Source: Parvibaculum sp. (GTDB lineage: Bacteria; Pseudomonadota; Alphaproteobacteria; Parvibaculales; Parvibaculaceae). Taken from it: DNA of 64,000 nt. The notes under the pieces were generated by a model, which had not been told where the DNA came from, did no database searches, and was given only the letters and a program-made list of their open reading frames with translations. Shown one piece after another: positions 43,807-44,463 of this stretch (positions are counted from its first letter, which is position 1; each line of letters opens with the position of its first letter). The stretch spans positions 1 to 64,000 of the forward strand of contig JAHBYM010000003.1 of the NCBI GenBank assembly GCA_019635975.1, read 5' to 3'. Both the position numbers and the translations under genes were made by a program.

Positions 43807-43883
43807 GATTATGCACTGAGGTTCCCCGCTTACCCCTCCCCAAACGGCTTGCAGCCGTTTGACCCTCCCACAGGGGGAGGGTG
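43807..43883 (+). repeat. DUF559-associated paired-hairpin repeat, copy R1
   Basis: A 77-bp element just before the DUF559 gene. A variable hairpin (AAACGGCT 43842-43849, loop TGC, AGCCGTTT 43853-43860) is followed by a constant one (ACCCTCCC 43862-43869, loop ACAGG, GGGAGGGT 43875-43882). It shares its 5' part (GATTATGC...GAGGTTCC..CGC) with R3. Confidence 0.88.
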
Positions 43884-43901
43884 GGCTGATAGGGTTGGCG
43901 G

Positions 43902-44264
43902 ATGACCGATGTGCGAACCCGCCAGCTCCGGCGCAACATGACCGATGCCGAGCGCCGGTTGTGGGGCCGCTTGCGGAAGGAGGCGCTCGGCTATGATTTC
44001 CGGCGGCAGCATCGGCTTGGGGTTTACATCGTCGATTTCGTTTGTCTGGAACGGCGTCTGATCGTCGAGGTCGATGGCGGGCAGCACAACATGCCGTCGG
44101 GTCTTGCGCGCGATGCGGCACGAACGAAATGGCTCAACGACGACGGTTATGAGGTTCTGCGTTTTCAGAACACCGATGTTTTGACGGATACCGACGACAT
44201 TGTCGAAACGATCTGGCAGGCACTGCGCAAACCGCGCGCCGGATTGCCTCCCGTTACCCGTTGA
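43902..44264 (+). CDS. DUF559 (Vsr-like endonuclease fold) protein
   Basis: 120 residues. RQLRRNMTDAERRLWGRLR, GYDFRRQHRLGVYIVDFVC and LIVEVDGGQH give the DUF559 signature. The D...E-V-D pattern resembles the PD-(D/E)xK nuclease core of Vsr-type mismatch endonucleases. The start follows GGCGG. It is bounded by repeat R1 on the left and inverted copy R2 on the right, with R3 beyond, so gene and repeats look like one unit. Whether the protein cuts or binds the repeats is unknown; DUF559 proteins are common but uncharacterised. Confidence 0.9.
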   Translation: MTDVRTRQLRRNMTDAERRLWGRLRKEALGYDFRRQHRLGVYIVDFVCLERRLIVEVDGGQHNMPSGLARDAARTKWLNDDGYEVLRFQNTDVLTDTDDIVETIWQALRKPRAGLPPVTR

Positions 44265-44280
44265 GTTTGTCTTGCTTTTC

Positions 44281-44332
44281 CACCCTCCACCTGTGGGAGG
44301 GTCAAACGGGCGTAGCCCGTTTGGGGAGGGGT
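44281..44332 (-). repeat. DUF559-associated paired-hairpin repeat, copy R2 (inverted)
   Basis: Inverted copy 17 bp after the DUF559 stop. The variable hairpin is AAACGGGC/GCCCGTTT around GTA. The constant hairpin reads CACCCTCCACCTGTGGGAGGGT on the plus strand, with one stem mismatch. With R1 it makes terminal inverted repeats around the gene. Confidence 0.85.
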
Positions 44333-44361
44333 GCTCCGTTTTCGGCGTGTGCAGGCTTTTC

Positions 44362-44440
44362 GATTATGCGCGGAGGTTCCTCGCCTACCCCTCCCCAAAA
44401 TTCGCGTTGCGAATTTTGACCCTCCCACAGGGGGAGGGTG
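44362..44440 (+). repeat. DUF559-associated paired-hairpin repeat, copy R3
   Basis: Direct copy of R1, including its 5' flank. The variable hairpin is AAAATTCGC (44397-44405), loop GTT, GCGAATTTT (44409-44417): an entirely different sequence that is still perfectly paired. The constant hairpin is identical to that of R1. Confidence 0.88.
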
Positions 44441-44463
44441 AGAAAGAAGGAGGGCGGTGTGGT

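Follow-up and report, generated by a model that had tools for sequence, protein, structure and literature searches.

DUF559 nuclease genes adjoin BoxC/intrastrand-triplex repeats across bacterial phyla and may form one system with them

Across bacterial phyla, genes of the DUF559 family lie next to short dispersed hairpin repeats, an association of which we have hardly any doubt. By their architecture, a hairpin with a third strand, the repeats belong to the BoxC/PIT/intrastrand-triplex motif (TM) class. We put at roughly 70% the probability that gene and repeat are two halves of one system, organized like REP/RAYT but served by a Vsr-like nuclease. DUF559 is thereby the first candidate enzyme for the spreading of BoxC/intrastrand-triplex repeats, which occur in hundreds of genomes, have been linked to genome instability and have no known mover. 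Our literature search, which was of incomplete coverage and had preprints outside its scope, found no paper linking DUF559 or ycjD to these repeats.

In the window (the whole 64,000-nucleotide stretch of Parvibaculum DNA analysed here), a DUF559 (PF04480) gene at 43902..44264 (+) encodes a nuclease of 120 aa that is Vsr-like or EDxHD-like, as judged from Pfam, an AF2 model, structure matches and dN/dS. The first-pass annotation had described this gene as closely flanked by one repeat (R1) and an inverted second (R2), with a third (R3) as a direct copy beyond and no transposase present. Coordinates and strands of R1 (43832..43884, –) and R2 (44280..44332, +), together with their 89% complementarity over 53 nt, confirm this close enclosure; R1 ends 18 nt before the ATG of the gene. 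No transposase ORF was recognised adjoining the gene. R3 (44387..44440, –) does match R1 directly, over 39 nt (90%) and 26 nt (100%), but it is not just a copy: R2 and R3 are the left and right halves of an inverted pair that is complete, lacks a gene and has a conserved core (44333..44386). Similar pairs are scattered over the genome, and the core is kin in sequence both to these dispersed gene-less pairs and to an orthologous pair in a congener (G032). R1 is the lone right half of an inverted pair, its left counterpart being missing, and the sequence on the core side of R1 (43807..43831, CGATTATGC..GAGGTTCC; direct repeat D4), which has dispersed copies, recurs in the core of the R2–R3 pair.

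All three window repeats combine a constant hairpin, ACCCTCCC-loop-GGGAGGGT, with a variable inner hairpin and a GGGGAGGGG strand; in R1 these parts are the Y-hairpin ACCCTCCC-CCTGT-GGGAGGGT, the inner hairpin CAAACGG..CCGTTT and the third strand GGGGAGGGG. Written as ACCCTCCC-N3-5-GGGAGGGT, the constant hairpin is found 47 times in the window's assembly versus 0 in the control, and as GACCCTCCC-N5-GGGAGGGT it is found ~42 times in the 3.26-Mb assembly versus 0–1 for the reversed control pattern; its dispersal is therefore not due to chance. Many of the latter copies form pairs that share a conserved core. This genome's second DUF559 gene (C312) has a repeat pair of its own, of the same build but in other letters, and because of this differently spelled pair the association was tested more widely. 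Rfam RNA families were rejected as the identity of the repeat, all matches being below threshold (whalefall-1, E 0.05; Scr1601, E 0.7), as was a defence-system reading of the locus, for which we found a marginal DpdF match and nothing else. The weak whalefall-1 RNA match (RF01762; 19.8 bits) lies at 44387-44442 (–) of the window, and this candidate RNA family may itself be a DNA repeat of the triplex-motif kind.

A polypyrimidine hairpin lies within 300 bp of the gene at 101 of the 113 loci with DUF559 (89%), which span many phyla; at randomly chosen positions of these loci the figure is 2.7%. For the family, 40 genomes yielded 38 near-full-length DUF559 genes. Hairpin density at the family loci was 5.6/kb within 150 bp of the gene versus 0.03–0.07/kb beyond 300 bp, the hairpin class having been set after inspecting the genus, whose sequences are kin, and left unchanged from then on. 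With the same criterion, 80 wider loci from GTDB, those that matched the genus proteins best, gave 5.6/kb near the gene versus 0.05/kb at 2–6 kb, and hairpins with purine 5′ arms showed no enrichment there. These 80 loci come from about a dozen phyla or classes, among them Alpha-, Beta-, Gamma- and Deltaproteobacteria, Nitrospirae, Elusimicrobia, Omnitrophota, Chloroflexi, Ignavibacteria, Planctomycetota, Marinimicrobia and Gastranaerophilales. Across 289 sampled genomes of the class, repeats flanked 26 of the 30 DUF559 genes that scored highest and 14 of 20 with lower scores; none of 26 Vsr genes in the same genome set had a hairpin within 1 kb.

DUF559 genes with no recognisable repeat are the exception (12 of 113 loci, ~10%), and one of them, L070, the sole full-length family gene with neither a hairpin nor a visible remnant, has lost its DGGQH active-site motif. 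Repeat copies with no adjoining DUF559 gene are common, and four genomes (G020, G025, G027 and G033, three of them incomplete) have repeats but no DUF559 that we could find. The REP/RAYT case is alike, in that repeat copies apart from the enzyme gene are common and some genomes carry the repeats without the enzyme. Neither of the two patterns that the first-pass annotation had named as telling against its proposal, repeats with no link to DUF559 across genomes and DUF559 conserved without repeats, is thus the rule.

The flanking repeats share with BoxC/PIT/TM (TMECO) a Y1-loop-R1-loop-R2 architecture and an intergenic, dispersed occurrence in inverted pairs (PMC4666352). Of 106 loci having hairpins, 98 also show a third strand (mirror, at most one mismatch). 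Such a strand stands beside 60% of hairpin strands, compared to 6.7% in shuffles, and the commonest loop preceding it in the wider locus set is 3 nt. Identical CCCTCTCCC..GGGAGAGGG-TTA/CCG-GGGTGAGGG letters adjoin DUF559 in several proteobacteria, and the E. coli BoxC/TM consensus with its TTA/CCG loops reappears next to DUF559 in other phyla; a strict asymmetry of the second loop (TTA versus CCG by side) was rejected, as either loop type was found on either side. Read from their sequences, R1–R3 fit the triplex pattern (Y-R hairpin plus mirror third strand, R-motif triplets) with one T.G mismatch. Their second loop is longer than the 3 nt of E. coli and the 1–6 nt of the ITxF search. Because this loop holds a hairpin of ~20 nt in the window repeats, we regard them as a variant of the triplex motif; in the window's genus it is a variable hairpin of 20–35 nt rather than 3 nt. 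The inner hairpins covary: in 84% of the distinct inner segments the two arms of an element pair over at least 6 bases, and arms exchanged between elements do so in 20%. The E. coli motif is the only one for which triplex formation has been demonstrated in vitro (PMC4666352), and a physical triplex at the repeats described here is putative.

The nearest TM tends to aim its third strand at the gene, by 70 to 20 upstream and by 55 to 28 downstream. At 49 loci a strictly converging TM pair surrounds the gene, and 44 of these pairs span 403–504 bp. Gene-less pairs of the window genome (140–170 nt) converge too, and the gene-less BoxC pairs of E. coli mostly have the same converging order (coordinates from PMC4666352). 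Because gene-less pairs share this arrangement with gene-bearing units, they look like internally deleted derivatives of them. The window clade (also L042) has a variant order, with the gene between two pairs instead of inside one. Enclosure of the gene by repeats, as first annotated, holds, but the outward-facing order seen in the window is not the usual one: elsewhere, at loci with both ends clear, a single converging pair usually encloses the gene. No near-identical copies of a gene unit within one genome were found in 14 genomes; two of the 14 have paralogous gene units with 75–80% identity over 462 and 679 bp. Some DUF559 genes are followed by tandem arrays of such motifs, with a period of 281 bp after NGO0050 of N. 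gonorrhoeae (L268, 3487-4170) and of ~88 bp in Rouxiella silvae (L147, 6434-7130).

Repeat spelling follows the protein. Genomes hold two to four DUF559 paralogues, spelling differs between the paralogues of one genome, and on a tree of 38 proteins from the genus and family the five repeat spellings require four changes, the minimum for five states. Copies of ACCCTCCC number 15–148 in 12 congeners with a matching DUF559 and 0–48 (median 1) in 15 congeners without one (p = 1e-4; p = 2e-4 for genomes at least 90% complete), so that copy number of this spelling tracks the matching gene. Copy number is linked to the gene more weakly with CCCTCTCCC (p = 0.03), and CCTCCCC..AAAA counts were kept out of the statistics because overlapping matches inflate them.

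The unit is also polymorphic among relatives. The window site is empty in G024 and G018, congeners in which the neighbouring GST gene is 100% and 98% identical, and in several others; it holds an R2–R3-type pair alone in G032, a single collapsed hairpin in G033, and in G000 a gene plus a pair related to that of G032. The unit may have been lost from the G024/G018 lineage, or it may have been gained independently. Gene-less elements elsewhere differ in presence between close relatives. Several DUF559 genes of the genus have been inherited vertically in place (e.g. L055/L059/L063/L067/L068) and others have not, and because several stay in place the gene itself moves infrequently; the notion that every unit sits in a different place was dropped, since flank comparison shows several units to be orthologous in place. 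No target-site duplication or exact target site was resolved in congener alignments, in which the intergenic flanks are too diverged to judge. Between genera, the carA-carB gap was entered by two spellings in opposite orientations. DUF559 is found in this gap in several species and genera (L036, L037, L038, L043, L070), one copy being decayed and without repeats, and the gap is a possible hot spot. A second palindromic family (GTCATGACCCGGCTTGTCCGGGTCATCCACGTC), unrelated to the first, sits where G000 has triplex-motif pairs (L256, L262, L263; G018 and G032 sites).

The window protein matches PF04480 with an E value of 8e-37 (125.9 bits; curated Pfam cut-off, 20.6). Its Pfam-A matches are to DUF559 and MTES_1575 only, both nuclease-type domains, with no match to PF03852 (Vsr), and hence it is not a Y1 HUH tyrosine enzyme. 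The active-site pattern E..D..ExDGGQH (E17, D45, E56, D58 and H62) is conserved in an alignment of 24. Structure matches to the AF2 model (pLDDT 85) include the DUF559 structure 3HRL (Z 15.1), I-Bth0305I (Z 11.9) and Vsr (1CW0; Z 10.6), in keeping with the Vsr-like nuclease fold proposed at first. Values of dN/dS between related DUF559 pairs of the genus are 0.05–0.25, indicating that the protein is under purifying selection. In several DUF559 proteins (L034, L039, L041, L266) the C-terminus is encoded by the repeat itself (e.g. ...SPNPLPRGEG).

We propose that the basic unit is TM> - DUF559 - <TM, usually of ~0.4–0.5 kb and with one nuclease gene of ~110–125 aa. The nuclease would recognise a TM of cognate spelling as folded single-stranded DNA (a hairpin, possibly with the third strand), each DUF559 clade serving its own spelling. 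Nicking of the folded single-stranded TM is the specific step we tentatively suggest. After a nick or cut at the TM, the unit, or a gene-less pair with the same ends, would be copied or moved to an intergenic site, or lost; it would be the protein, rather than the host, that moves the repeats, and gene-less pairs would be non-autonomous passengers, MITE- or REP-like. The suggestion of the first-pass annotation, a self-spreading repeat with a dedicated nuclease other than RAYT, thus draws support from the association, while movement and cutting are its presumed parts. We see even chances for a broader formulation, in which TM-DUF559-TM units would be phylum-spanning autonomous mobile elements (~0.4–0.5 kb) with a Vsr-like PD-(D/E)XK nuclease acting on triplex-forming terminal repeats, and all bacterial BoxC/TM repeats would be these elements or their gene-less derivatives.

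An unlikely alternative is that DUF559 is a free-standing homing endonuclease that cuts gene-less TM sites, its gene being copied in by break repair and the repeats spreading by other means. The fold, nearest after 3HRL to the EDxHD enzyme I-Bth0305I and to Vsr, is in keeping with this, and so is the window site, with a pair alone in G032 and a related pair plus gene in G000. However, gene loss in the G032 lineage by recombination between two flanking pairs is equally possible, and homing leaves unexplained both what spreads the gene-less pairs and why the repeats vary in copy number and spelling with the DUF559 clade. We consider it very improbable that a host structure-specific or Vsr-like nuclease resolves folded TMs and that selection holds gene and repeats together. 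Such a role would fit the strong purifying selection (although a domesticated mobile nuclease could give the same), the instability of TM loci in E. coli (PMC4666352) and the behaviour of the Caulobacter DUF559 protein VsrA (CCNA_02930), studied as a repair protein, whose expression rises upon DNA damage and which, in a methyltransferase mutant, sets off a damage response (PMC12907096). Yet a repair enzyme acting in trans has no need of a position <150 bp from a repeat, true Vsr genes are without such linkage, and the unit is patchy and polymorphic. That the repeats are cis-regulatory, as terminators or autoregulatory operators of DUF559, is scarcely credible: hairpins do often lie just 5′ of the start codon, as in the window, and just 3′ of the stop, but the same repeats are dispersed over tens of further sites, they flank the gene on either side with converging order preferred, and PIT/TM motifs reportedly showed no promoter or terminator activity (PMC4666352, citing earlier work). 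Chance clustering, with DUF559 an intergenic passenger hitch-hiking among repeats that are intergenic and in some of these genomes abundant, is statistically refuted by the 89% observed versus 2.7% expected, the zero count for Vsr and the fall in density beyond 300 bp, and is at odds with clade-specific spellings and with recurrence in unrelated phyla.

The preferred reading, one system of DUF559 and TM, joins a widespread protein family without a known function to repeats without a mover, so that a function can be tested for each of them, and E. coli K-12 with its ycjD and 23 BoxC copies already offers access to it. There, ycjD is a DUF559 gene, BoxC no. 9 (numbering of PMC4666352) starts 168 bp past its stop codon and a degenerate BoxC copy overlaps its 3′ end; by our own estimate (23 motifs, 4.6 Mb), chance would put a motif so near a given gene in <1% of cases. 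DUF559 genes are flanked too in N. gonorrhoeae (NGO0050, 3HRL), Deinococcus proteolyticus, Sinorhizobium meliloti and Pseudanabaena. E. coli strains without ycjD (L273-L275, L277) have an efflux operon beside sapF, and were rejected as a clean empty site because that operon takes up the sapF side.

Among known systems, BoxC/PIT/TM has been in the literature since the 1990s, where, unlike here, it is described without an associated gene or mover. YcjD of E. coli, NGO0050 and Caulobacter VsrA are all DUF559 proteins, the first two adjoining TM repeats. Vsr mismatch endonucleases are alike in fold, but Vsr genes of the same class lack the repeats. The EDxHD homing endonuclease I-Bth0305I, a mobile-gene nuclease and the nearest non-DUF559 fold in the PDB, is alike in fold alone; it is intron-encoded, whereas DUF559 is free-standing and repeat-flanked. 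Gene-less inverted pairs recall MITEs in resembling deleted derivatives of a gene-bearing unit, but no DDE transposase is seen at the DUF559 unit, and the flanks are too diverged to judge a target-site duplication either way. A working parallel is REP/RAYT (TnpA-REP, Y1 HUH), with its small dispersed palindromes, its gene-less composites and an enzyme gene that occurs in single copy and is bordered by the cognate repeat. DUF559–TM likewise has an enzyme gene flanked by a cognate repeat with dispersed copies, in line with the likeness first noted, and with a different enzyme family: a Vsr-like PD-(D/E)XK nuclease in place of the HUH tyrosine enzyme, a gene usually within a converging pair, and a repeat that is a triplex motif. 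If our reading is true, palindromic repeats would have a second enzymatic route of spread, independent of HUH/RAYT, and a single gene of ~350 bp would place the unit among the smallest autonomous mobile elements.
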